Positions 15,947 to 31,356 of a DNA stretch of 64,000 nucleotides are shown here, one piece after another. The notes under the pieces are model-generated. The model was not told where the DNA came from. It searched no databases and saw only the letters and a list, made by a program, of their open reading frames with translations. The stretch covers positions 1 to 64,000 of the forward strand of contig CAIVQG010000039.1 of NCBI GenBank assembly GCA_903907985.1, given 5' to 3'. Position 1 is the first letter of the stretch; each line of letters opens with the position of its first letter. Made by a program: the position numbers and the translations under genes. The stretch comes from an uncultured delta proteobacterium (GTDB lineage Bacteria; Desulfobacterota; Syntrophia; Syntrophales; Smithellaceae).

Positions 15947-17497
15947 GTGCTGATGAAATCTAAAAGAGGTATAGTATGCTGCGGCGCTCTACTGATGACG
16001 GCATTGCTGTTTGGCAGTCCTTCTACGATCTGGGCTGTGGAAGGCGGTAAAGAGCAGAACAAAGCGGCGGTCAAAATGACTCTGGCCGATGCTGTCATCA
16101 TTGCCCTGAATAATAACGTTTCCCTGAAGAGTGCCTACCTCGACCGCATTCTTCAGCAGTTTGATCTGCGGAAAGCGGAAAATAAATTCTTTCCGGAGCA
16201 GTCAGTGAAGCTGACTGCTGGCCGCACATCAAACTACAGCTCTCCGGACGAAAGAACCAATGCCGTTAACACTGGTGGCGACTACACGGCAACACTGACG
16301 ATTCCTACCGGAGGCAATTTTAATTTTACCTGGAACAATGCAGGAAACAGTCCCGATACCAATCAGGCATTTGCCTACACTTCAGCCTGGTCACTCACCT
16401 TCACGCAGCCGTTGCTTAGGGGTGGCGGCATCGACAACGCCACCTACTCCGTCAAGGTCGCCCGGATTACGGAGGAGCAGAATATCCTGTCGATGAGGGA
16501 CACGATATCATCGACGATCAAAACGGCTATTACAGCCTACAGAACATACTTGAGCGCCAACCGCCAGTTGGAGATAAGCAGACAATCGCTTTTGGAGGCG
16601 AAGAGGACTTATGAAACAAACGAAGCCCTCATCACAGCAGGACGGAAAGCAAGAACGGAACTGGTTGAAACGGAAGCCAACGTCGCCAATCAGGAATTAG
16701 CCGCCACCACGGCACAGAATTCGCTGGAATCCGCCCGCCTCTCCCTGGTTCAGGCCATAAATGTTGAGAAAAATACACTGTTTGAGCTGGTCGAGGAAAA
16801 CGATTATCAGGTTAAGCCTCCTTCCCTTCCGGAAGCTATCGGGATCGCCAAAAAAAACCGAACAGACTATCTTAAGGCATTGCAAAATATGGAGATAAAA
16901 AAATGGGATCTTTCCAATGCCAAGTGGAACCGGATGTGGTCTCTCGACCTTGTGGCCGGCACAACTGACAGTGAGTCAACCACTGCGTTAGACAAATACG
17001 GCGATTCTTTGCGCCGGGCGACAAGCAGCGGCGCCCAGAGGAACTGGACTGCCGGATTAACCTTGACGGTACCCTTCAGCCTGTTGACCCCCGAGCGGCG
17101 CGCCTATATCAGCGCCCAAAACGAATTAGAGAAGGCCAAAATGAACCTGCAAAAGATGGAGGTTGATCTGGAAATAGCCGTGCAAAGTGCTGTCCGGGAC
17201 GTGGAGACAAACTACCGGCAAATGGGACTGGCCAAACGGGCACGTTCACTTTCGGAGCAGAAACTGGAAGTGGAAAATGAAAAGCTCAAGGTCGGACGCA
17301 CAACCAACTTTCAAATCGTCAGCTATCAAAACGATCTCAATAATGCCAAGACCAGCGAGCTCAACGCCGTAATTGCCTATCACAATTCCCTGACGTCTCT
17401 GGATGAAACGCTCGGCACAACACTGGCAACCTGGAAGATTGAAGTTAAAAAGGAAGATGACAAAGTCAAGCTGCCGCAAGCCGCAGTCAAACCTTAA
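15947..17497 (+). CDS. TolC-family outer-membrane efflux protein
   Basis: The outer-membrane channel of a tripartite exporter. A signal peptide (hydrophobic 'CCGALLMTALLFG', probable cleavage after 'TIWA') precedes duplicated OEP repeats rich in coiled-coil helix, with 'LTFTQPLLRGGG' and 'PFSLLTPERRAYISAQNELEKA' typical of TolC proteins. It has 516 residues from a GTG start; GGAGGA lies 14 bases upstream. An in-frame ATG two codons later is possible but further from the ribosome site. It heads the run adaptor-ATPase-permease with short gaps, so it is the exit duct for that exporter. Confidence 0.92.
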   Translation: MLMKSKRGIVCCGALLMTALLFGSPSTIWAVEGGKEQNKAAVKMTLADAVIIALNNNVSLKSAYLDRILQQFDLRKAENKFFPEQSVKLTAGRTSNYSSPDERTNAVNTGGDYTATLTIPTGGNFNFTWNNAGNSPDTNQAFAYTSAWSLTFTQPLLRGGGIDNATYSVKVARITEEQNILSMRDTISSTIKTAITAYRTYLSANRQLEISRQSLLEAKRTYETNEALITAGRKARTELVETEANVANQELAATTAQNSLESARLSLVQAINVEKNTLFELVEENDYQVKPPSLPEAIGIAKKNRTDYLKALQNMEIKKWDLSNAKWNRMWSLDLVAGTTDSESTTALDKYGDSLRRATSSGAQRNWTAGLTLTVPFSLLTPERRAYISAQNELEKAKMNLQKMEVDLEIAVQSAVRDVETNYRQMGLAKRARSLSEQKLEVENEKLKVGRTTNFQIVSYQNDLNNAKTSELNAVIAYHNSLTSLDETLGTTLATWKIEVKKEDDKVKLPQAAVKP

Positions 17498-17524
17498 AGA
17501 GAAACTAACTAGGCCTGGACAAAC

Positions 17525-19303
17525 ATGAAAAACGACGAACTGATCTACCAGAATATCCTGGCAAATATGAGCGACGGGGTTATGACCATTGGTCTTGACG
17601 GCAGGATCATAACCTTTAATGAAGCCGCCGAAGAGATCCTGCAGATGAAAGCCCCGGAAGTCATCGGCAAACCTTTCGGAGAGATATTCCTCATCCTCGA
17701 GGGTTACGATGATTTTAACCAGATCATCCTGGACGCTGTATATGAGTCGGCAACCATCCAGAACGGCGTCGTTTCTATTCAAGCTGAAGATACTACTCGC
17801 ACTCTCACCCTGACAACCTCCTTTCTCAAGGCGGAGCGAGACGGCAAAAAGGAGAAAGTTGCCGTTATTGCAGTTTTCAGTGACATGACGGAGCTCGAAC
17901 GCATGCGCTCCGCCGAGATCCAGCTCACGGGCCAGATCAAGGAAAAGCACAAGGAACTTCAGGATTCGTATCTAAAGCTGGAAGATTCAACTAAGAACCT
18001 GGAGGTGGCGCTAAAGAAAGTCCAAATTGTTCGGATCGCCGCCACGGCTTTCGTCATAGTCCTTTTTCTTTCCATCGGTTTATTCTCCTGGGTTAGAACA
18101 ACTTCTACTGCTCACAAAACGGAAGGAAGCCAGGTGGAAAAGCCGGCGAAGGGAGCAGCGCAGAATTTTTATGCGGTAGCTCCCCAGCCCCTGTCGGACA
18201 GCATCTCGCTTAAAGGCTCATTAAGGCCGATTCAAGTCGTCAATATCCCCATCCCTTTTACCGGCAACGTGCAGGAAATGTTTTTTGAGTATGGCCAGCC
18301 GGTAGCAAAAGGACAAATTTTGCTAAAACTGGACAGGACGGAGGCGGAAACAAAACACCGTGAGGCGAAGTCCGCTTTTATCAAGGCGCATGAAAAGTTC
18401 CGGGAAGTTACAAAATGGGAGACAAGCGATGAGGTAATAAAGGTCGGACGTTCGCTGGCCAAGGCGAAAATGAGTCTCGATACCCAGAAAAGGACACTGA
18501 CGGAAACTGAGTATCTGTATAAGAAGGGCATCGTACCGGCAACAGAATACGAAAATGCCAAACAGCAGTACATCAACGCGCAGCTTGATTATGAGTCAGC
18601 CGAACAGGAACTCAAAACAGCCATGGCCAAAGGACGGGGAGACAATTTCACTGTCATCCGCCTGGAGATGGAAAACGCAAAATCAAAACTGGCCGAAATG
18701 GAGAGGCAACTGAGCCGGGCGGATATTTTCGCTCCTGTATCAGGGACCGTAGTCATGCCGGACACAGCGGATAAGGACAAGAGCTCCAAAATGGTCTCCA
18801 AAGGCGCGTCATTCACTCAGGGAGAAATCCTGCTGGCCGTTGCTGATACCGAAGGATTTACAGTCCGGATGGATGTGGATGAGATAGAGGTATTAAAGAT
18901 AAAGCGGGATCAGGGGGCAATTATTACGGGCGAAGCCTTTCCGGGGGTGGAACTCAAAGGCAGGGTCTCCCATGTGTCCGCACAGGCAGCCTCAGCGGAA
19001 GGCAAGCCGGAATCCCCTACATTTAAAGTGGCTGTAGCTATTGATAAAGTAGTTCCGGAAGTAAAGGAAAAGATTCGTCTCGGCATGTCGGCCAGCATTG
19101 TTATCCAGGTATTGCAGAAACCCCAGGCGCTTCTGGTTCCCATCACAGCAGTCACTATGGAAGGTGCCGGTCGATTTGTAACCATAAGGGACAAGACTTC
19201 TAAGGACTTAAAAAAGATTAAGGTGGAGACGGGTATCACAACTGCGAATGCCGTGGAGATACTCAAAGGTCTTAGTGCCGGTGATGAGGTGCTCGTACCT
19301 TGA
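17525..19303 (+). CDS. PAS domain-containing periplasmic adaptor (HlyD/MacA-type membrane fusion protein)
   Basis: The N-terminal part (about residues 1-125) is a PAS domain ('ILANMSDGVMTIGLDGRIIT' start; 'VIAVFSDMTELERMR' end), as in sensor kinases. A coiled coil of about 40 residues follows, then one transmembrane helix at about 169-190. After it comes a MacA-like adaptor: biotinyl-lipoyl halves ('FTGNVQEMFFEYGQPVAKGQ' and 'SRADIFAPVSGTVVMPD'), a helical hairpin at roughly 280-385 and a beta-barrel. Adaptors normally have only a short N-terminal anchor; placing a cytoplasmic sensor directly on the adaptor is unusual. With TolC, the ATPase and the FtsX/MacB permease alongside, the PAS part may gate export or assembly in response to a ligand or redox state (inference). 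Confidence 0.9.
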   Translation: MKNDELIYQNILANMSDGVMTIGLDGRIITFNEAAEEILQMKAPEVIGKPFGEIFLILEGYDDFNQIILDAVYESATIQNGVVSIQAEDTTRTLTLTTSFLKAERDGKKEKVAVIAVFSDMTELERMRSAEIQLTGQIKEKHKELQDSYLKLEDSTKNLEVALKKVQIVRIAATAFVIVLFLSIGLFSWVRTTSTAHKTEGSQVEKPAKGAAQNFYAVAPQPLSDSISLKGSLRPIQVVNIPIPFTGNVQEMFFEYGQPVAKGQILLKLDRTEAETKHREAKSAFIKAHEKFREVTKWETSDEVIKVGRSLAKAKMSLDTQKRTLTETEYLYKKGIVPATEYENAKQQYINAQLDYESAEQELKTAMAKGRGDNFTVIRLEMENAKSKLAEMERQLSRADIFAPVSGTVVMPDTADKDKSSKMVSKGASFTQGEILLAVADTEGFTVRMDVDEIEVLKIKRDQGAIITGEAFPGVELKGRVSHVSAQAASAEGKPESPTFKVAVAIDKVVPEVKEKIRLGMSASIVIQVLQKPQALLVPITAVTMEGAGRFVTIRDKTSKDLKKIKVETGITTANAVEILKGLSAGDEVLVP

Positions 19304-19369
19304 TTGATATCATACCAATTCGCGCTCACAGGCTGACTGATCATCAGAGGATGATCCATTTCCGGGGGG

Positions 19370-20041
19370 ATGCCATTGCTGGTTTTTGAAGACATATGGA
19401 AGAGCTATCAAGTTGGTCCCACAGTACTGGATGTGCTCAAAGGGATATCCATCACTGTCGAAAAGGGAGAACTGCTGGCTATTGTGGGTCCGTCCGGTTG
19501 CGGCAAATCCACGTTAATGAATATTATCGGCCTTCTCGATAAGCCGAGTTCCGGCAGCTATCATATCGAGGGAGAGAAGATTGGTTATGATGACGACCGG
19601 ATTCTATCCTCGATTCGCAACAAAAATATCGGTTTTGTCTTTCAGCAATACTATCTGCTGCCGCGATTGAACGCTCTGGATAACGTCGGCCTGCCGCTGG
19701 CCTATCGTAATGTACCCAAGACAGAAATTGCCGACAGATCTATGGAATATCTAAAGAGAGTGGAGATGCAGGACAGGGCGTATCACAAGCCGGATGAAAT
19801 GTCCGGAGGACAGCAGCAGAGAGTTGCCATAGCCCGCGCCCTGGTAGGCAAACCTACGCTGATCCTGGCCGATGAGCCCACGGGCGCCCTGGACAGCTCC
19901 ACCGGCCAGGACATCATGAACCTCTTTACGAAAATCAACGAGGAAGAAGGGGTCACAGTCATTATCATCACTCATGATCTAAAGATCGCCGCGCAGTGCC
20001 GCCGCAGTCTCAAAATGATAGACGGTAGAATTTGTGAATAA
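19370..20041 (+). CDS. ABC transporter ATP-binding protein (MacB/LolD type)
   Basis: A 223-residue ATPase with Walker A '[10 protein letters not shown]', Q-loop '[17 protein letters not shown]', signature '[16 protein letters not shown]', Walker B '[12 protein letters not shown]' and the switch histidine in 'IIITHDL'. This subfamily powers FtsX-fold permeases that push substrates or lipoproteins through the periplasm without a classic transmembrane channel. It sits 66 bases after the PAS-adaptor gene and 19 bases before its permease. Confidence 0.93.
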
Positions 20042-20060
20042 AAGGAAAGACTAGGAACAA

Positions 20061-21242
20061 ATGATTCTCGGCGCAAACCTCAAAGAGGCTCTTACCAGTC
20101 TGACCACGGCCAAACAGCGTACCATTCTCGCTTTGATCGGGATAGTGATCGGCATTGGCTCCGTGATCGGCATGATATCTATTGGTGCTATCGTGCAGAA
20201 CGAGGCTCTCAAGCAGTTCAAGGAGATGGGCATAGATATCATAACCGTTCGGCAAGATAGCGGAAATACCGGAAAGGGGGGTAGTTTCCGTCTGGACACC
20301 ATCAGGGAACTTCCCTTGCATGTCAAAGATGTTAAAGAAGTTGCTCCGTATATCAATTCCTCGGTAAGCTATGGTCAAGGCAGAAAGACGGAAGGGATTG
20401 AGATGATGGGGGTTACTGAAACCTTCTTCCGGATAAACAAACTGCGCATCAAAGAAGGGCGGCAAATAACCGACCTGGACGAAAACCGTTACTTTTGTGT
20501 CATCGGAAACGGGGCAGCGAATATACTCCGCAAATTCGGTATTGCGCAACCGATGGGAAGCCAGGTTGCCCTGGGGCAGCGGATATATACCGTAATAGGA
20601 GTCATTGATAAGGTGCCGGAAGGCGGTGGCATGCGACCATATGGGCTCAATAATGCTGCGATAATCCATATTTCTACGGCTAAAAGGACTTTTCAATCGC
20701 CGGATATCAACGTGTTTCTGGCACGGGTTGGCACCGAGCAAAAATCAGCTCAACTCAAGCAGTCAATAGGCGACTATTTTACTTTTAAAGCGAGGGGCCT
20801 GCGCGTAAACGTACAAACAGCCGAAGAATTGATCGAGAAGATGCAGGCACAGATGCGTCTGTTTACTTTGCTCCTGGGTGCTATCGGCAGCATCGCCCTC
20901 ATTGTCGGCGGCATCGGCGTTATGAACGTGATGCTCATCTCCGTGACCGAAAGAAGAAAGGAAATCGGCATCCGCCGGGCTTTGGGCGCGCAGCAGTCTG
21001 ACATTCAGAGTCAGTTTATTATTGAGTCCGTAATGCTCTGCCTGGTGGGCGGCCTGATCGGTATTATCCTCGGCACCTTTGTATCCTATCTCTTCGCCTA
21101 CTTTACCAAGTGGGAATTCGTTGTTTCCTATATGGCCATTATTCTCGGTTTTGGAGTGGCCACAGCGGTAGGCGTCTTCTTTGGTTATTACCCTGCCCGC
21201 ACTGCATCCCGGATGGACCCGATAAAGGCCTTGAGGTCTTAA
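20061..21242 (+). CDS. ABC transporter permease, FtsX/MacB family
   Basis: The 393-residue protein has the MacB layout: one N-terminal transmembrane helix ('ILALIGIVIGIGSVIGMISIG'), a periplasmic MacB_PCD domain of about 220 residues, and three C-terminal helices starting 'LLLGAIGSIALIVGGIGVMN' with the 'ERRKEIGIRRALGAQQSDI' coupling segment. Unlike E. coli MacB, the ATPase is a separate gene immediately upstream. Together with TolC and the PAS-adaptor it completes a tripartite exporter. The substrate is unknown. Confidence 0.93.
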   Translation: MILGANLKEALTSLTTAKQRTILALIGIVIGIGSVIGMISIGAIVQNEALKQFKEMGIDIITVRQDSGNTGKGGSFRLDTIRELPLHVKDVKEVAPYINSSVSYGQGRKTEGIEMMGVTETFFRINKLRIKEGRQITDLDENRYFCVIGNGAANILRKFGIAQPMGSQVALGQRIYTVIGVIDKVPEGGGMRPYGLNNAAIIHISTAKRTFQSPDINVFLARVGTEQKSAQLKQSIGDYFTFKARGLRVNVQTAEELIEKMQAQMRLFTLLLGAIGSIALIVGGIGVMNVMLISVTERRKEIGIRRALGAQQSDIQSQFIIESVMLCLVGGLIGIILGTFVSYLFAYFTKWEFVVSYMAIILGFGVATAVGVFFGYYPARTASRMDPIKALRS

Positions 21243-21322: not shown

Positions 21323-21360
21323 CCTTGCAAAATTTAATCAGGAAGTGTTGGGTAACATTT

Positions 21361-21687
21361 ATGGAAATTCAGACAGCGAAAGAAAAGAATACGGTTGTTG
21401 TTTCCGTCAAAGGCAAAATTGATGCCGTTACAGCCCCGGAATTTGAAAAGGTACTGGGGAAACTGATTGCCGATGGCGAGAACACTTTTCTCCTCAACTT
21501 CAGCGGACTGGAATACATCAGCAGTGCTGGTCTGCGCAGTATTCTGTCTACGGCGAAACAGTTGAAGCCGAAAAGCGGAAGAATCCTTTTTTCCGGTCTT
21601 CAGGGTCCCGTTAAAGATGTGTTTAAGATATCCGGATTCGGCACCATCTTTAAAATCTTTGAAACCCGGGAAGATGCATTGAAGTAA
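21361..21687 (+). CDS. STAS-domain anti-sigma factor antagonist (RsbV/SpoIIAA-like)
   Basis: A 108-residue single STAS domain: 'NTVVVSVKGKIDAVTAPEFE', 'FLLNFSGLEYISSAGLRSIL' with the phosphorylatable serine in the SSAG loop, and 'FSGLQGPVKDVFKISGF'. Such proteins bind an RsbW-type kinase when dephosphorylated. The kinase gene follows after 9 bases. The start was set to ATG 21361 because the longer frame would begin before the predicted transcription start. Confidence 0.9.
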   Translation: MEIQTAKEKNTVVVSVKGKIDAVTAPEFEKVLGKLIADGENTFLLNFSGLEYISSAGLRSILSTAKQLKPKSGRILFSGLQGPVKDVFKISGFGTIFKIFETREDALK

Positions 21688-21696
21688 GTCAAATTT

Positions 21697-22140
21697 ATGG
21701 CCATACCCTCAACCATCACGTTGCCGGGGACATTAGACTCCCTCTATCCTTTCATGGATTTCGTTACTTCCTTTTCCCGGGAACAGGGATTCGGAAGTGA
21801 GAAAATCGGCGAGATAGAGCTGGCCTTGGAGGAAGTTCTCGTCAACATCATCAAACATGCCTATAAGGAATGTGATATTGAGGGCAATATCAAGATCACT
21901 TGTACACAAGACGATAAGCATAGCCTGGTCCTCGAGATCGCCGACTGGGGAACACCCTTCAATATATTCTCCGCCCGTGAACCGGACATATCTCTGGACA
22001 TTGACGAACGCCAAATCGGGGGACTGGGGATCTTTTTTGTTAAAAAGCTGATGGATGAGGTCCGGTACCGACTTGAGGACGATCAAAACAAATTAACACT
22101 AGTTATCCATAATACTCATTTATCTTCCGACAAGAGATAA
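21697..22140 (+). CDS. RsbW-like serine kinase / anti-sigma factor (GHKL ATPase)
   Basis: A 147-residue HATPase: N-box 'ELALEEVLVNIIKHAY', G1 box 'IADWGTPFN', and 'RQIGGLGIFFVKKLMDEVRY' forming the ATP lid. It should phosphorylate the adjacent STAS protein and bind a target such as a sigma factor or enzyme. No sigma factor of the SigB/SigF type is adjacent, so the output is unknown. A PP2C-type SpoIIE phosphatase, the expected third partner, is encoded about 5.5 kb downstream on the other strand. Confidence 0.88.
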   Translation: MAIPSTITLPGTLDSLYPFMDFVTSFSREQGFGSEKIGEIELALEEVLVNIIKHAYKECDIEGNIKITCTQDDKHSLVLEIADWGTPFNIFSAREPDISLDIDERQIGGLGIFFVKKLMDEVRYRLEDDQNKLTLVIHNTHLSSDKR

Positions 22141-24853: not shown

Positions 24854-25186
24854 ATGATTCAGGATCGTCTTAACAAGATTGAAGAGAAGCTGACGCAGAG
24901 CAAAGAAGTCAAAGAGAGCGACAAGGCCGAACTATTAACCATCCTGACGACCCTGCGGGCGGAGATTGCCGAACTTTCCCGGACGCACCATGAACAGGCG
25001 GAAAGCATCGTCGGATTCGCCGAATTATCCGCCCATGAAGCCACCCGCAGCGAAATGAGTCCGACGCTTTTTAATTTATCGATCGAAGGCCTGACCTCAT
25101 CGGTTCAGGAATTTGAAATATCCCATCCCAGACTAGTAGGGATTATCAATAGATTATCCACAATGCTTTCTAATCTGGGAATATAG
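24854..25186 (+). CDS. DUF4404-family small helical protein
   Basis: 110 residues with no signal sequence: an N-terminal heptad-like coiled coil ('IQDRLNKIEEKLTQSKEV'...'LLTILTTLRAEIAELSRTH') and a C-terminal conserved part 'LTSSVQEFEISHPRLVGIINRLSTMLSNLGI' that I recognise as DUF4404. Function unknown. It is expressed on its own between the FKBP gene and a sigma-54-like unit. Confidence 0.75.
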   Translation: MIQDRLNKIEEKLTQSKEVKESDKAELLTILTTLRAEIAELSRTHHEQAESIVGFAELSAHEATRSEMSPTLFNLSIEGLTSSVQEFEISHPRLVGIINRLSTMLSNLGI

Positions 25187-25243
25187 CCTCTCCTACTGCG
25201 GCCGCTTATCCCCTGGATTTGTTAATCAGCAAGAGCAATCCCC

Positions 25244-25280
25244 TGCCAACTCGGTTGGCACTCCCGCCCACAAAGTGGGC
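25244..25280. promoter_or_regulatory. Paired dyad (probable activator sites), copy 1
   Basis: TGCCAAC-N3-GTTGGCA at 25244-25260 (perfect 7-base arms) and GCCCAC-N3-GTGGGC at 25266-25280 (perfect 6-base arms). The centres are 21 bases apart, two helical turns, and lie about 70-100 bases before a -24/-12 promoter. This is the geometry of bacterial enhancer-binding protein sites. Similar pairs occur at 29544 and 29796. Confidence 0.65.
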
Positions 25281-25345
25281 AGTTCTGAACTTACCCCACA
25301 GAAAATAAATATTGCCAACACCAGTCAATACTGGTTATGAGCAAA

Positions 25346-25361
25346 TGGCACACAAAATGCT
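25346..25361 (+). promoter_or_regulatory. Candidate sigma-54 promoter of the small exported protein gene
   Basis: TGGCACACAAAATGCT: perfect TGGCAC -24 box, GG and GC 10 bases apart. Predicted start about 25372, 60 bases before the ATG. The paired dyads upstream support activator-dependent expression. Confidence 0.65.
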
Positions 25362-25431
25362 AATACTGTAGGCAAGAAGGCATACTGACAAGATTCCTTG
25401 TCTTGATGAAAAAATATTCGGAGGCGATGAA

Positions 25432-25824
25432 ATGAAGATTTACAAAAGTTTTTTACTGTTGGTTATTTTACTTCTCGCGTTCACGACCAATGCCGGAGCA
25501 TGGGAGTTCACTTTCAAAAACGAAAGCAAGCAGACCCTTACCTGGCAGGTTTACGGCAGCCAATGGGGCACTAAAGCGTATCGCTGCACGATAATAACAG
25601 GACCCAACCAAACAGGTCCCCAAGACTGCCAGATGCCTTGGGGCGAATGGCCCCTTGCCGCTGTTACAGTTATTTCAACGAGGTTCTATTGTGGGGAGAA
25701 TATTTGCCATACGCCCTACCAAGATTTACAAGCGAAATGCGGAGGTCCGTGGAATTGCAGTGTTACTATTTATGACAAACTGAACCCTATGGAGGGTATC
25801 GGGATTAATATAATGAAATACTAA
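25432..25824 (+). CDS. Small exported Cys-rich protein of unknown function
   Basis: 130 residues. The first 23 are a clear signal peptide ('FLLLVILLLAFTTNAGA', cleavage before 'WEF'). The mature part is rich in Trp, Thr and Gly and has seven cysteines, the kind that could pair as disulfides in the periplasm or outside the cell. I do not recognise the family. The ribosome site GGAGGCG is good. Expression is probably from the sigma-54-like promoter upstream, and a strong terminator follows. It shares its upstream architecture with the DUF1566-like gene at 29963. Confidence 0.75.
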   Translation: MKIYKSFLLLVILLLAFTTNAGAWEFTFKNESKQTLTWQVYGSQWGTKAYRCTIITGPNQTGPQDCQMPWGEWPLAAVTVISTRFYCGENICHTPYQDLQAKCGGPWNCSVTIYDKLNPMEGIGINIMKY

Positions 25825-25871
25825 CGCTCAGTCTCCCCAAATTTGTCCGGAATTAACGCGGGGGAATTCGG

Positions 25872-25919
25872 GGGACATAATACCTATAGCTATAGATTCA
25901 AGCGTTATGTCCCTTTTTT
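25872..25919 (+). terminator. Rho-independent terminator
   Basis: GGGACATAA (25872-25880) and TTATGTCCC (25905-25913) form a perfect 9-base stem followed by six T residues (25914-25919). It separates the plus-strand exported protein gene from the convergent permease gene. Confidence 0.85.
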
Positions 25920-25934
25920 CTACACCCTAGCCTG

Positions 25935-27644
25935 TTAATGATCGAAGTGAAAAATAACTTTACATCGACCGTCTTTCTCTTCCGACTCAATCCGGTCCAC
26001 ATACTGTCTGATGATCCGGGAAGAAAGATTGGTCAGGGCATTATCATCGTCCAACAGGGCGTCTCCCTCCAGAAAGGTTTCGGCAAATTCGACGGGTGTA
26101 CCCTCGTAACGGATCGTAATATCCAGATTGAATTCATCAAAGAAGACTTCCGCCGCAATTTTACCCCGGGCCAATTCCAGGTTTGTCGCCATTTCGAAGA
26201 ATTCATTGAGCGCCATCTTGGCCTGCTGGATGACATCTCCGCGTGCCCCCCAGGTTGCTCCCTGGTTCTCCATGAAATGGAATATTTTGTTTGAGGAATC
26301 AACACCGGGCGTAAGCTCCAGAACTTCCCGACGGGCAATACCGATGCGAAAGACCAAATTCAGAATGATAGCGAGCATTGTCGTTACAGTAAGGGAAGAT
26401 TGGAAAAATGGTTCCAGCCAGGGATGAAGATTGCGGTAAAGATTCGGAAATATGTCCGCACTGATCCCGAACATGAGCGATATGCCGATGACAAAGGTCT
26501 TCCGGATATCAATCATGCGGGAAGTCATGATCTGAATGCCGGAGATCAACATAAAGCTTACCATAAAAACAAGCGCACCCCCCATGACCGGCCGGGGCAT
26601 AATACTGAAGACCGCGGACATCATGGGAAGAAAAGCCAGCGCGATGAACATTCCGCCGGTAACCAAGGAGATGATGCGGCTTGTCGTTCCCGTGGCGGCA
26701 CTTAAGCCTACACTGCCCGCATAGAGTGACTGTCTCATCCCTCCCAGCAGGCCGCCGGCAACAGACCCCAGCCCGTCGGCCAACGTCCCTCGCTGGATAT
26801 TATCCAGGTCGGCTCTCTTCCATTCCGCATCGTTGATCCTCTGGCACATGGTGAGCGCCGCTACTGCTTTCAAGACGGTGGCCAGTGTTGCGGCAATAAA
26901 GGGCACCACAAGAATCGGACTGAACGACCATCCGATATAGGAAAGATCGGGAAAGGAAAGCAGAGGGGATTCGATAATCAATTCCAAATCAGAAAACTTC
27001 AGCACACCTACCAAATATGCAGCAATGTAACCCGCGGCCATACCGATAATAACTGAATAAAAGCGCAGTTTCCCCTTGCTCCAAACATTTGTTCCCACCA
27101 TACCCGCCAGGGTAACAACAGCAACGAAAATGTTGGCCGGGAGAACCTTACTTTCCGTTCCCGTTATACCAAAGAAATTGCTGATCATGACGGGAACGAT
27201 ATTCAGGCCAACCATGGTGAGAACCACACCCGTCACTTCCGGGGGAAACAGTATCCTCATCCGGTTGATAACTCTGGATATGAGGATCTCCAGGACACCG
27301 GAAAAGATGGACATTCCGAGAATCAGGGAAATACCGCCCGTCATACCAGCCAGAATGGAACAGGAAACAAAAGTAGGATCAATACCCGCCGTACAGAGAT
27401 AACCGCTCCCCACGGGGCCTTTATTCAGGGCCTGCATGATGGTGGCAATACCCCCGGCAATCATGGACATGCACACGACACTTTGAACAAGTTCGGGCGG
27501 ACAGCCGATCGCCCTCGTAACCATAGCGGCTACGATCAGCCCGGCGGTGAGAAAGAAAACGTGCTGGATGGCCAGGGCAATGATGATCCGGAGTGGTGGC
27601 TTATCATCCACTCCATAGACTAGATTGGCAGGTTTCTGCGGCAT
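25935..27644 (-). CDS. NCS2-family (uracil/xanthine) permease with a C-terminal cytoplasmic domain
   Basis: A 569-residue protein. Residues 1 to about 440 form a 14-helix NCS2 transporter ('HVFFLTAGLIVAAMVTRAIG', 'YLCTAGIDPTFVSCSI', 'GLLGGMRQSLYAGSVGLSAATG'), which usually imports nucleobases with protons. The remaining 130 residues are soluble, include 'EVFFDEFNLDITIRYEG' and end 'CKVIFHFDH'. I recall this tail in other bacterial NCS2 proteins and it has a faint resemblance to RsbW-like ATPases, but the nucleotide-binding boxes are not clear. It is 17 bases downstream of the SpoIIE phosphatase gene, in one operon, which suggests a regulated transporter. Confidence 0.85.
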   Translation of the reverse strand: MPQKPANLVYGVDDKPPLRIIIALAIQHVFFLTAGLIVAAMVTRAIGCPPELVQSVVCMSMIAGGIATIMQALNKGPVGSGYLCTAGIDPTFVSCSILAGMTGGISLILGMSIFSGVLEILISRVINRMRILFPPEVTGVVLTMVGLNIVPVMISNFFGITGTESKVLPANIFVAVVTLAGMVGTNVWSKGKLRFYSVIIGMAAGYIAAYLVGVLKFSDLELIIESPLLSFPDLSYIGWSFSPILVVPFIAATLATVLKAVAALTMCQRINDAEWKRADLDNIQRGTLADGLGSVAGGLLGGMRQSLYAGSVGLSAATGTTSRIISLVTGGMFIALAFLPMMSAVFSIMPRPVMGGALVFMVSFMLISGIQIMTSRMIDIRKTFVIGISLMFGISADIFPNLYRNLHPWLEPFFQSSLTVTTMLAIILNLVFRIGIARREVLELTPGVDSSNKIFHFMENQGATWGARGDVIQQAKMALNEFFEMATNLELARGKIAAEVFFDEFNLDITIRYEGTPVEFAETFLEGDALLDDDNALTNLSSRIIRQYVDRIESEEKDGRCKVIFHFDH

Positions 27645-27661
27645 AGCGGCCTTTACCTTTT

Positions 27662-29026
27662 TTATTCCTGCTTGATTCCCTTGTACTGCAAAGCCAGGAT
27701 TGTTATGTCATCCGACTGAGGGGCACCGGCAGCATGGCCGTGGACATCCGCCAGAATTTTTTTCAGCAGCGCGTCGGGGTGCTGCCCATTGACTTCCCGC
27801 AGTGATGTGAGGAGTCGTTCCTCGGAGAAAAGCTCTTCATTTTTGTTCATTGCCTCGGTAACACCATCCGAGTAAATTATGATGGTGTCGCCTACCCCGA
27901 GAGTAAATGTTTCCTTAACATAGGGACTGTCCTCAAATGAAGCAATGGGCAGGGAACCCTGCGTTTCCAGATACTCCGGATTTACTGCCCGGCGGCATAA
28001 AACAGGTGGATTATGGCCGGCATTGCTGTATTCCACCTTGCCGGTCCGGGTATCAATGATGCCGCAGAAAACGGTGGCAAACATCGACATGTCATTTCCT
28101 TCGCAGAGTTCATTATTTACTTTGAAGAGAACTTGGTCAATGCTGGTATCTTCATCGGCCACCGCTTTGAGAAGTGTCTTGGTAACAGCCATAAAGAGCG
28201 ATGCGGGAATTCCCTTCCCGGAAACATCTCCCAGCAAAAAGACTAAATGATGACGGTCCACAAAGAAGAAGTCGTAAAAGTCCCCGCCCACCTCTTTCGC
28301 CGGTTCCAGTACAGCGGACAGCTCAAATTCCGGCCTTTCGGGAAACGGGGGAAACATCTTGGGGACCATACTCATCTGGATTTCCCGGGCCGCATTGAGT
28401 TCCCCTTCAATGGTGTGCTTTTCCTGTTCCCAGGAACGCTGTTTAACCAGATTGACAACGATGGATGTGTAGATGGCCATGCCAATTGCATTGGCCAAAA
28501 TCATGGGCAAGGTTAACACTTTGACAATTTCCAGCGATTGTTCAAAGGGGCGAGCAATCAGCAGTGTTAATCCCGAGTGGAGTATCTGGTTGACAACCGC
28601 CACGACAACAGCGCCGGTCACACCGATAAATTCTCCTTTCCTCCACTTGAAAACCAGCCCGCCAACAAGTCCGGAGACAATAGTGGCGACGGAACAGGAT
28701 ACCTCGGTAAAGCCGCCCATAGAATACCGGTGAATTGCGCCGATCAATCCGGCGCCGAGGCCGGCTATGGGACCACCAAAGAGGCCCGCTAGGGCGGGAC
28801 CAAGATCCCTCGTATTGGCAAAGGCGCCCATAAACTTGAAGCCGCTCAATGTCCCATAGATGGATAAGAGACCGAAAACCAGGATAATCAGAAACGTGCC
28901 CTTCCAGGTAAACTTTTTCTGTAGTAACTCGTCGTAGAACCGGCTCCGGGACAAAATATAGGCAATTACGGACATGACGGCCATGCTGTTGATCAGCGTC
29001 ACGACCAGTTCCATTATCTCCTTCAT
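27662..29026 (-). CDS. Membrane PP2C-type phosphatase (5TM-LytS-like sensor + SpoIIE/RsbU domain)
   Basis: 454 residues. The first 200 are a multi-helix membrane domain with 'GPIAGLGAGLIGAIHRYSMGG', the 5TMR_LYT type. Residues from about 225 form a SpoIIE phosphatase with metal-binding aspartates in 'EVGGDFYDFFFVDRH', 'LLGDVSGKGIPASLFMA', 'IIYSDGVTEAMNK' and the ending 'PQSDDITILAL'. Such enzymes dephosphorylate STAS antagonists in partner-switching pathways. It is the first gene of an operon with the NCS2 permease and has a strong promoter of its own. The STAS/RsbW-like pair at 21361-22140 is a plausible but unproven partner. Confidence 0.9.
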   Translation of the reverse strand: MKEIMELVVTLINSMAVMSVIAYILSRSRFYDELLQKKFTWKGTFLIILVFGLLSIYGTLSGFKFMGAFANTRDLGPALAGLFGGPIAGLGAGLIGAIHRYSMGGFTEVSCSVATIVSGLVGGLVFKWRKGEFIGVTGAVVVAVVNQILHSGLTLLIARPFEQSLEIVKVLTLPMILANAIGMAIYTSIVVNLVKQRSWEQEKHTIEGELNAAREIQMSMVPKMFPPFPERPEFELSAVLEPAKEVGGDFYDFFFVDRHHLVFLLGDVSGKGIPASLFMAVTKTLLKAVADEDTSIDQVLFKVNNELCEGNDMSMFATVFCGIIDTRTGKVEYSNAGHNPPVLCRRAVNPEYLETQGSLPIASFEDSPYVKETFTLGVGDTIIIYSDGVTEAMNKNEELFSEERLLTSLREVNGQHPDALLKKILADVHGHAAGAPQSDDITILALQYKGIKQE

Positions 29027-29062
29027 ACAACCTCCGGCCTTGAGTTGAATATTAGCGAAGGG

Positions 29063-29091
29063 AGTATAGTTAATCTATGTTTAGATGTCAA
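29063..29091 (-). promoter_or_regulatory. Sigma-70 promoter of the SpoIIE-permease operon
   Basis: On the minus strand TTGACA (29091-29086), 17-base spacer, TATACT (29068-29063): near-consensus boxes at ideal spacing, about 30 bases before the ATG. Confidence 0.8.
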
Positions 29092-29110
29092 AGGAATAGG
29101 AATTGTGCCG

Positions 29111-29145
29111 TTAAAATATTACCTGGATCACAGGTAATATTTTAA
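29111..29145. repeat. Perfect 15-base inverted repeat between divergent promoters
   Basis: TTAAAATATTACCTG (29111-29125) and its exact complement (29131-29145) flank a 5-base loop GATCA. It lies 20 bases upstream of the minus-strand -35 box and 17 bases upstream of the plus-strand -35 box at 29163. It could be an operator serving both promoters, or a hairpin in a long transcript. Confidence 0.7.
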
Positions 29146-29162
29146 AAATAGTTATGATTTTC

Positions 29163-29191
29163 TTGACATAAAGGCCGGCGCTTCCCATATT
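29163..29191 (+). promoter_or_regulatory. Sigma-70 promoter facing the SpoIIE-like remnant
   Basis: TTGACA (29163-29168), 17-base spacer, CATATT (29186-29191). It points at the decayed gene starting at 29254, so a promoter survives in front of a broken gene. Confidence 0.55.
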
Positions 29192-29253
29192 TTGCGGCAC
29201 AAATTGGCAACGGGGAAGTTAATCTTTAATCTGACATTGTGGAAGATACGGGG

Positions 29254-29511
29254 ATGACATCAATCAGGGCGAAAATGCTGCTTTGGTTCGGCCTGACACT
29301 GGGCATACTAATGGCGGCCTTCGGATTCGCAACCTATTCCAGTATCAAGGGCACGGTAATTCCCCTGACCCACGGCCCCCAGAATGATCCTACGGCAATA
29401 ATTCATTACATCCGCGCCTGATTGCACCGGCACGCCAGCGGCGCTCCGCAATCGGACGATGTCACGATGCTGGCCATAAAATACCGGGGCACACCAGAAA
29501 AGAAAGACTAA
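29254..29511 (+). pseudogene. Remnant of a membrane sensor/SpoIIE phosphatase gene, middle deleted
   Basis: The frame opens with a membrane anchor ('KMLLWFGLTLGILMAAFGFATY') like the start of a signalling receptor. After about 55 codons it meets an in-frame TGA at 29419. The same frame then reads 'HASGAPQSDDVTMLAIKYRG' to a TAA at 29511, the typical last residues of a SpoIIE phosphatase (compare 'AAGAPQSDDITILALQYKG' at the end of the intact neighbour). All the catalytic domain is missing. The gene has evidently lost its centre and kept both ends. Confidence 0.7.
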
Positions 29512-29543
29512 AGGCCTTCTCCCTTCTCATACTCCGTCTCCAC

Positions 29544-29581
29544 TGCCAACTTTATGGGCAGTGATGCCCACCAAGTTGGCA
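29544..29581. promoter_or_regulatory. Paired dyad, copy 2
   Basis: Half-sites TGCCAAC-N3-ATGGGCA (29544-29560) and TGCCCAC-N3-GTTGGCA (29565-29581), centres 21 bases apart as in copies 1 and 3. I found no good -24/-12 promoter or intact gene right after it, so this may be the control region of a lost gene or a distal enhancer for the DUF1566-like gene. Confidence 0.55.
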
Positions 29582-29795
29582 ATCCAGAGCGGGCACTTAC
29601 AGCCACATGGGGAATATTTTTCTTTATGGACTGACCGCGCTGTTTGTTATAGGATTGGGTCGGCATCGTCTCCGGCATTACCAGCTCACAGGCAAAAATT
29701 AGAAAGGAACCCGGAAAGTCAGTTATGAGCCGGGAAAGGTCGGCTCAAGAAAATGCAGCGCTTCAACATTTGAAATTTGCCTATTCGTTTTGCGC

Positions 29796-29833
29796 TGCCA
29801 ACTCCGCCCGCAAAATTGCCAACATTCTGGGCG
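29796..29833. promoter_or_regulatory. Paired dyad, copy 3
   Basis: TGCCAAC begins both sites, at 29796 and 29817, 21 bases apart. Right halves are weaker (GCCCGCA and CTGGGCG). About 65-100 bases downstream lies a -24/-12-like promoter, the same arrangement as copy 1. The gap 29512-29795 otherwise shows only copy 2 and a small hairpin (GAGCCG...CGGCTC). Confidence 0.5.
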
Positions 29834-29897
29834 CCTGCACCTAAGCCGGAAGGGCAAATATTATCACAAACACCGGTTAATACTGACTATGCAGCAC

Positions 29898-29913
29898 TGG
29901 CACAAATATTGTT
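29898..29913 (+). promoter_or_regulatory. Candidate sigma-54 promoter of the DUF1566-like gene
   Basis: TGGCACAAATATTGTT: perfect TGGCAC -24 box; the -12 element is TTGTT, with GT in place of GC at the right spacing. It lies 65 bases before the ATG at 29963. The surrounding sequence resembles that before 25432, for example a CAC-GTAATACTG-like string upstream and GCAAGAAG downstream. Confidence 0.5.
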
Positions 29914-29962
29914 TAAAATATCTGCAAGAAGATAAATAGGTGGGAACAGATAGAGGTGATTT

Positions 29963-30438
29963 ATGAAAAAAAATACTATCACAGTTTGGGTGGTGCTGGC
30001 TTTCTTGATGTTGACTTTTGTTTCTTGCCAATATGCGGCAGCGGCAGATTGTTTCGTCGACAATAAAACGGCACGGTGACGGATACACAAACCAAGTTGA
30101 TGTGGGCGACCCAGGATAATGGATCGGATATCAACTGGTATAGCGCCAAGAGTTACTGCGAGGGATATAGCAAAGGCGGTGGCGGCTGGCGGATGCCGAC
30201 GCAAAATGAGCTCGTGGGGTTGTATCAATCCGGGTTGCGTTCATGGGGAAGTCATGCCATCAAACTTACCGGAAATATGGTATGGGCATCAGAAGCAAGT
30301 ACAAGTATGTACGGCAGTCAAGATGGCGACGACGTATATTTCGTTACGGGTTGCGAAGGCTGGTTTCCCAAATCGAAAGGGGCTTATAATGTCTCCGGGT
30401 ATACCCACCGGGCATTGCCGGTTCGCAACACCCCGTAG
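29963..30438 (+). pseudogene. Exported DUF1566-like protein gene with a one-base frameshift
   Basis: The ATG at 29963 has a GAGGTG ribosome site and starts a signal peptide ('VWVVLAFLMLTFVSCQYAAAA'). The frame ends at TGA 30077-30079 after 'CFVDNKTAR'. From about 30066 the next frame reads 'NGTVTDTQTKLMWATQDNG', then 'GWRMPTQNELVGLY' and 'ALPVRN', the hallmarks of DUF1566. Family proteins normally read 'FVDNNNGTVTDT', so one base is missing in the AAAA run near 30066. Either the gene is broken, the run is slipped during expression, or this is an assembly error. DUF1566 proteins are exported, often lectin-like or sulfatase-fold-like; exact role unknown. Confidence 0.7.
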
Positions 30439-30459
30439 TATTGATTAGGGGATCAAGAG

Positions 30460-31356
30460 ATGGTGGTGGAATTCATGAATGACCCGAACATTGCCAGCGT
30501 CTTCTTTCACCACATTCCCGAATGGGTTCTTGCGGGCCATGTTGCTTTCGGAAAAGATAAGTTGGTTCCTATCGGTCGAATTCATTATTTTTTCCACTGG
30601 CTCTATGGGAAATACGAACCCCTGATTTTGCGTTTGGTGGATTGGATTCTGCGCCAGACATTCATCACCCAGACGGCAATCGGCAGCTCAGTGATGACAG
30701 GCCTCGCCACAACGTCCCACTACCTGCCCCACGGCATCATCGTGCCAACTTCATCAGCCGTCCGTCTCGTCAGACACATCGAAAACCTGAAGGACGAAGA
30801 GAATACGCCCATACTGGCGGTTGGACCCTGCGTCTGCCAGATGTCGCTTAACCGCTGGCAGGAACCATCGTGCAAGGACATCGTCGTACTGTACGGCGCA
30901 GAAATCTACCTGCATTTGAATCGGGGATACAGGATAATCACCGCCGCCGAGGCTCAAGCGATCCTCGAACAGTGCCGGGATGCGGGGCTTGTCCACAGCC
31001 TGGATTTTTGCATGCAGTCCGGCCGCTGGCATTTTGTCATCTGCAATTGCGACCGGGACATCTGCGTTCTGACCCGCACCTTTCTGCTAACGGGAAAAAT
31101 GCTCTATGCCGGCCCCTGGATAGTCAAACAGGACCGGCAAACATGCCTCGGACCGGAGCTCTGCGGCAATTGCGTGAATATCTGCATGTTCGGTGCGAAT
31201 TACGTCAAAGAAGGCGTTATCTCCGTGGACGGAGGAAAATGCCACGGTTGCGGGCAGTGCGTACAAGTATGCAAGGGAAACTCCCGTGAAATGATCCGGC
31301 GGAAAAGGTATGCCCATGAACACATTATACCCGCAGATATCCTGTTGCCGGGGTGA
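30460..31356 (+). CDS. Iron-sulfur protein with ferredoxin-like C-terminus, function unknown
   Basis: 298 residues. The N-terminal part has no family I can name. From about residue 125 there are several cysteine groups: 'GPCVCQM', 'DFCMQS', 'CNCDRDIC', then a ferredoxin-like end 'CLGPELCGNCVNIC' and 'CHGCGQCVQVCKGN', enough ligands for two or more 4Fe-4S clusters. No signal peptide. It is 85 bases before the radical SAM gene on the same strand and may supply electrons to it (inference). Confidence 0.75.
   Translation: MVVEFMNDPNIASVFFHHIPEWVLAGHVAFGKDKLVPIGRIHYFFHWLYGKYEPLILRLVDWILRQTFITQTAIGSSVMTGLATTSHYLPHGIIVPTSSAVRLVRHIENLKDEENTPILAVGPCVCQMSLNRWQEPSCKDIVVLYGAEIYLHLNRGYRIITAAEAQAILEQCRDAGLVHSLDFCMQSGRWHFVICNCDRDICVLTRTFLLTGKMLYAGPWIVKQDRQTCLGPELCGNCVNICMFGANYVKEGVISVDGGKCHGCGQCVQVCKGNSREMIRRKRYAHEHIIPADILLPG

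Follow-up and report, generated by a model that had tools for sequence, protein, structure and literature searches.

A recurrent double dyad ahead of −24/−12 elements: a putative sigma-54 promoter module of exported proteins in uncultured Syntrophales

What is the paired dyad that recurs in a contig of an uncultured member of the Smithellaceae, and which protein would read it? We analysed a stretch of 64,000 nucleotides (hereafter the window) from contig CAIVQG010000039.1 of assembly GCA_903907985.1 (Desulfobacterota; Syntrophia; Syntrophales), in which inverted repeats of the type TGCCAAC-N3-GTTGGCA occur as three pairs (copies 1 to 3), two of them ahead of genes for exported proteins. A first-pass annotation, made from the letters alone, had proposed one enhancer-binding regulator for a set of secreted proteins. 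It is very probable that the repeated signal activates the expression of a small set of exported proteins in Syntrophales of sediments. Taken as a whole, the evidence makes it probable that the element is an upstream activating sequence (UAS) joined to a sigma-54 promoter, that it serves a regulon of secretion and of the cell exterior, and that it was ancestrally read by an enhancer-binding protein (EBP) with the loop GVATGV.

Each of the three copies consists of two 17-bp palindromes with a pitch of 21 bp (Table 1), in agreement with the two helical turns proposed earlier between paired dyads. The pairs had been placed at 25244/25266, 29544/29565 and 29796/29817; all three are real, and the second dyad of copy 1 is corrected to start at 25265. 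The palindromes of copies 1 and 2 are good and those of copy 3 imperfect (3 and 2-3 mismatches). With up to three mismatches allowed, TGCCAACN3GTTGGCA matched the window 12 times against 2.7 expected, a number reached by 0 of 100 shuffles, and the two-half-site pattern matched nine times against 1.0 expected. A scan of the whole genome for the paired motif had been set beforehand as a check: the 3.4-Mb genome has four occurrences of the strict double dyad (≤3 mismatches) and none of its reversed-pattern control, and looser and profile searches supplied the remaining copies of the module described below. Pairs scattered at random over coding sequence, which the first-pass annotation had named as counter-evidence, were not seen; the element is intergenic and non-random. 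It is near certain that the dyads are a regulatory element. When dyad 1 was tested as an RNA hairpin, no compensatory changes were found and 66% of cells were paired, no better than in shuffles. Since the dyad arms show no covariation, a structured RNA was rejected and the dyads are taken to be a DNA site.

A scan of positions 25000-30500 on both strands found exactly two good GG-N10-GC/GT elements, at 25346 and 29898. Each begins 102 bp downstream of the point where its first dyad starts and 65 bp past the end of its second dyad; the earlier claim had placed copies 1 and 3 65-100 bases before TGGCAC-type promoters. Copy 2 has no good element of this kind on either strand in the same scan, and is thus a pair of dyads only. 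Just upstream of this orphan pair, at 29447-29510, is a remnant (QSDDVTMLAIKYRG) that matches the C-terminal end of a SpoIIE phosphatase. When the sites of the window's own genome (G000) were aligned with one from a relative, approximately 140 bp proved to be conserved, comprising, besides the dyads, a TTGcAA...TAT stretch, the element TGGCAYatagATTGC and, in many copies, a TAATCAGCA box. The box is present in copy 1 and in L003, L004, L010 and L062, and is weaker or absent in the other copies. Across the order, GG-N10-GC/GT is found in 22 of 27 copies, mostly 100-104 bp from dyad 1, a count that is tempered by GG and GC/GT having themselves entered into the selection. The second T of TTG, which played no part in that selection, is present in 22/22, and the sigma-54 consensus GG-N10-GC is found in its TGGCAY...TTGCW context. 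The palindromes, which in most copies stand 100-102 bp ahead of −24 and, with a 21-bp pitch, lie on one helical face, have the geometry of a UAS for a bacterial enhancer-binding protein (bEBP). Dyads and −24/−12 element very likely form a sigma-54 UAS module, in which the double dyads would let two dimers of a Fis-type bEBP bind in tandem some 100 bp ahead of the promoter, the two parts together making one transferable unit.

The conservation of a TTGcAA-N17/18-TATnAT stretch in many copies of the own genome also speaks against this assignment. It raises the possibility that the dyads serve a sigma-70 promoter, as the operator of a repressor or class I activator, with GG-N10-GC fortuitous. The near-fixed distance between dyads and promoter would suit direct contact, most own-genome copies retain the −35/−10-like stretch, and the copy in G008, a relative of the same family, keeps it without GG-N10-GC. 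The copies ahead of hcp, a gene of type VI secretion, point the other way: they keep GG...GC with a changed spacer (TGGCACGGGATATGCT) and have no good −35. The TTGcAA...TAT stretch is poorly preserved in these copies and in L197, and the hcp copies, L197 and L024 all retain the −24/−12 element while their −35/−10 is poor. The activator encoded next to the module in two relatives is, moreover, a sigma-54-type EBP with intact Walker motifs. The hcp copies, together with the 22 of 27 copies with GG-N10-GC/GT, favour sigma-54, and we regard a sigma-70 operator as improbable; a second promoter may overlap the sigma-54 one. The conservation of approximately 140 bp before unrelated genes could also be that of an interspersed repeat that lies upstream of genes by chance and has no regulatory role. 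However, almost every copy lies ahead of a start codon and points towards it, conservation is concentrated in the dyads and promoter-like elements, and no terminal repeats or target duplications were noticed, although they were not searched for systematically. We give such a repeat very little credence.

Recurrence in the own genome was assessed with a promoter-core profile, which found eight copies at 34-59 bits, the next best match scoring 17 bits. These copies lie on contigs C3, C15, C29, C39 (two), C45 and C63 (two), and one of the two on C63 (L054) lacks recognisable dyads. Together with the orphan pair at 29544 they make up nine places in the genome. The 130-aa protein behind copy 1 (w1) has no Pfam family match, and its fold prediction is beta-rich (mean pLDDT, the predicted local distance difference test score, of 70) with no significant match in the PDB; distant relatives (~22-29% identity) are found behind modules on C3 and C63. 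Copy 3 precedes an exported Lcl_C protein, an intact homologue of which stands behind the module in L192. An apparent one-base frame change splits the gene behind copy 3 near 30065-30076, with the signal peptide in one frame and GTVTDTQT... in another, and is either an assembly error or the mark of a pseudogene. Other genes behind modules in this genome include those of Lcl_C proteins and of a membrane protein; exported status was judged by eye from N-terminal signal-like segments. Behind the C29 module (L003:1657-1779) stands only a very short peptide, which may be frameshifted (MKRILLLC...; with LIESTIGGLLCIWGAYKLYG in another frame). Two leaders of Lcl_C genes, L054:777-851 and L090:1500-1560, have in common ATGGCAnACAGATTACGATTGTGATrACAATGCC, with AC at −12 and dyads absent or degenerate, resembling module decay.

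The distribution of the module is patchy: it was found in 11 of 155 Syntrophales genomes and, within the window's family, in four of 51 (G000, G008, G018 and G036). The genes behind it mostly encode Sec-exported proteins or lipoproteins. Targets elsewhere include Lcl_C, pentapeptide-repeat, lipoprotein, periplasmic-binding, cNMP-binding and small exported proteins, as well as Hcp in three genomes. The earlier proposal of a set of secreted proteins thus holds in the form of a dispersed, mostly exported regulon, with the qualification that Hcp, among the targets elsewhere, is not Sec-exported. The module would drive a small regulon of cell-exterior proteins. A pattern scan of named genomes gave six matches, two of which (L067 and L068) are real modules; the other four were rejected, the rest of the module being absent. 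In G028, a double dyad (L023) located within or next to a PAP2-like gene had no clear promoter and was excluded.

A candidate reader emerges from the hcp copies. In G148 and G152, the module sits between an EBP gene and hcp inside a type VI secretion system (T6SS) cluster, with TssF, TssG and TssH genes upstream of the EBP gene; the identity of Hcp is solid (PF05638, 5e-31; TIGR03344, 1e-47). The adjacent EBP is a one-component protein without a receiver domain, in which GVATGV replaces GAFTGA. An order-wide search (E<=1e-100) found this family in eight genomes, and all eight proteins, together with one from Nitratidesulfovibrio vulgaris, carry GVATG[VI] and a REGLR[KR]K helix. Among the 104 genomes outside the window's family, the EBP occurs in eight and the module in seven, with an overlap of six; that is, in 6/7 module genomes vs 2/97 others (Fisher p=1.3e-7, the genomes not being independent). 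Counted by genus (46 genera), the overlap is three of four and four (p~0.001, calculated by hand). Adjacency, co-occurrence and footprint make this bEBP a candidate for binding the UAS, and we consider it likely that the GVATGV family reads the dyads in the order Syntrophales. The ancestral reader would most likely have been a one-component EBP of this family, with the GVATGV loop, a conserved N-terminal domain and the REGLRKK helix, its genes being found either within T6SS clusters or next to a PAS-HlyD/MacB exporter and STAS/RsbW/SpoIIE partner-switch genes. The N-terminal domain (LAEAFGMM.VKVEAREF) also occurs in proteins other than EBPs (L238, L235 and L246), such as a CPBP-protease-like protein of G018.

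The neighbourhoods of these EBP genes resemble the window. The EBP gene of G131 adjoins the MacB end of a TolC/PAS-HlyD/ABC/MacB operon that is homologous (51-64%) to positions 15947-21242. In G062, the EBP gene has an RsbW-like gene beside it, homologues of SpoIIE and TolC/PAS-HlyD close by and a STAS homologue within the locus; in G153, it is close to RsbW-like and SpoIIE homologues. In N. vulgaris, a SpoIIE gene is found two genes downstream of the EBP. By these homologous loci, the window has the same neighbourhood, modules included, without the EBP. A xanthine/uracil-type permease (25935-27644), with a C-terminal extension past its Pfam match, directly follows the SpoIIE gene on the downstream side and shares its strand.

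Table 1. Features of the window, with the module elements, the genes behind them and the neighbouring genes that recur around EBP genes.
Feature	Sequence	Position	Strand	Basis or remark
TolC - PAS/HlyD - ABC ATPase - MacB exporter operon		15947..21242	+	homologues flank EBP gene in G131, partly in G062
STAS protein		21325-21687	+	homologue in EBP locus of G062
RsbW-like kinase		21697-22140	+	homologues beside EBP gene in G062 and G153
Conserved box upstream of copy 1 dyads	TAATCAGCA	25223..25231	+	alignment
Dyad 1a	TGCCAACtcgGTTGGCA	25244..25260	.	pattern search
Dyad 1b	CGCCCACaaaGTGGGCA	25265..25281	.	21 bp from 1a
Conserved stretch from enhancer to −24 element	TTGcAA...TAT	25312..25345	+	alignments; alternatively a weak sigma-70 promoter
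−24/−12 element	TGGCACACAAAATGCT	25346..25361	+	GG-N10-GC/GT scan
130-aa protein (w1), N-terminal signal-like helix		25432..25824	+	behind copy 1
SpoIIE-type phosphatase		27662..29026	-	homologues near EBP gene in G062, G153 and N. vulgaris
Dyad 2a	TGCCAACtttATGGGCA	29544..29560	.	orphan pair
Dyad 2b	TGCCCACcaaGTTGGCA	29565..29581	.	orphan pair, no −24/−12 element found
Dyad 3a	TGCCAACtccGCCCGCA	29796..29812	.	imperfect
Dyad 3b	TGCCAACattCTGGGCG	29817..29833	.	imperfect
−24/−12 element	TGGCACAAATATTGTT	29898..29913	+	GG-N10-GC/GT scan
Exported Lcl_C/DUF1566 protein		29963..30438	+	Pfam PF07603, 1.6e-10; behind copy 3

A GVATGV reader is most strongly challenged in the window's own family. The 19 EBPs of G000 include no protein with GVATGV or REGLRKK, searches of G000, G008 and G036 did not find the N-terminal domain of the EBP family, and in G018 that domain occurs solely in a non-EBP protein. 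The correlation between EBP and module therefore fails where the window lies, the four module genomes of the family having no EBP of this kind that could be found. The change from F to A in GAFTGA is, in addition, expected to weaken contact with sigma-54. A sigma-54 activator gene beside the same dyad, for which the first-pass annotation had asked, is found in the two relatives G148 and G152 and beside none of the own genome's 19 EBP genes, near which no dyad pairs occur. The idea of one enhancer-binding regulator thus has its counterpart in those relatives; as the cognate family was not found here, a single regulator is not established for this genome.

The EBP gene may be absent from the assemblies, it may have been replaced by another EBP, or the regulon may be decaying in the family. 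The sole copy in G008 has lost GG-N10-GC, which fits decay, and most copies in G000 do not look decayed. In the case of replacement, the sigma-54 module would be the same and the family's dyads would now be read by an ordinary GAFTGA-type EBP. G000 offers such candidates, most of its 19 EBPs having GAFTGA or GSFTGA, and this would account for a GVATGV protein not having been found by searches in any of the four module-bearing genomes. Against it, the REGLRKK helix and the adjacent dyad pairs are missing from all 19, and within the family the searches turned up no EBP distributed like the module. Attempts to name the activator by presence and absence of the 19 failed, the conserved ones also occurring in module-free relatives (EBP sets for G001-G003, G018 and G036 were incomplete in this comparison). 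The EBP of L035 was rejected as reader, being present in 43/51 family genomes (approximate query, 84% to the own gene). The own genome also encodes a membrane-anchored EBP without a receiver domain (L031, on contig C83). We consider an ordinary EBP in this role unlikely. That the GVATGV family itself reads the dyads in this genome is, from the genes found, a tentative proposition and somewhat doubtful; its reader would be either missing from the assembly or replaced.

The first-pass annotation had not recognised the kind of system. It is recognisable as a bEBP/sigma-54 regulon, the nearest counterpart being the predicted DVUA0100 regulon of Desulfovibrio (PMC4641369). DVUA0100 of D. vulgaris (Nitratidesulfovibrio vulgaris) is reported there as a one-component EBP with GVATGV and a predicted sigma-54 regulator of a type III secretion system (T3SS). 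Its RCH1 orthologue has the N-terminal domain and recognition helix in common with the Syntrophales GVATGV EBPs. The T3SS promoter of N. vulgaris contains TGCCAACATCGTTGCC, for which 0.005 occurrences are expected in shuffled intergenic sequence, and the −24/−12 element TGGCATACTTGCTGCT; in two strains with diverged upstream DNA, CGCCAAC and CAACGATGTTGGCA are unchanged. The two systems are alike in the GVATGV one-component EBP with homologous N-terminal domain and REGLRKK helix, the sigma-54 promoter, TGCCAAC/GTTGGCA half-sites in the target promoter and a SpoIIE gene nearby. They differ in bacterial order, in their targets (there the T3SS and a predicted effector) and in spacing, the best dyads lying ~32 bp apart vs 21 here, as compared through half-sites in promoter DNA. 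The family of the window shares with a DVUA0100-type regulon the half-sites in target promoters, while no GVATGV EBP was found in G000, G008, G018 or G036.

Two further systems were compared. Control of the T6SS through sigma-54 by VasH/Sfa2 (PMC10482370) is similar in having an EBP within the T6SS cluster that acts on hcp and dispersed genes; here most targets are Sec-exported proteins that have no T6SS genes nearby, the likeness being one of description. The PEP-CTERM box of PrsR-PrsK (PMC1569441) likewise places a UAS and −24/−12 module before many single-gene operons of exported proteins. Its motif 1 ends in TTTACA, unlike the consensus here, and the w1, Lcl_C, L067 and L197 proteins, judged by eye, lack a C-terminal membrane segment. 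The PEP-CTERM/PrsR box was rejected, as the motif differs and no PEP-CTERM domain was found in the proteins scanned.

More speculatively, GVATGV EBPs could constitute a class of their own among sigma-54 activators, one that dispenses with the phenylalanine of GAFTGA in promoter opening, is gated through STAS/RsbW/SpoIIE partner switching, and regulates cell-contact secretion machines (T6SS and T3SS) and dispersed exported proteins through one double-dyad module, a generalisation that we think rather unlikely to hold in full. The present findings give a regulon of uncharacterised exported proteins in uncultured Syntrophales both a defined cis-signal and a candidate for its activator. They would extend a single published prediction, that of DVUA0100 and the T3SS in Desulfovibrio, to the T6SS and secreted proteins, and make testable how a GVATGV bEBP can work with sigma-54.

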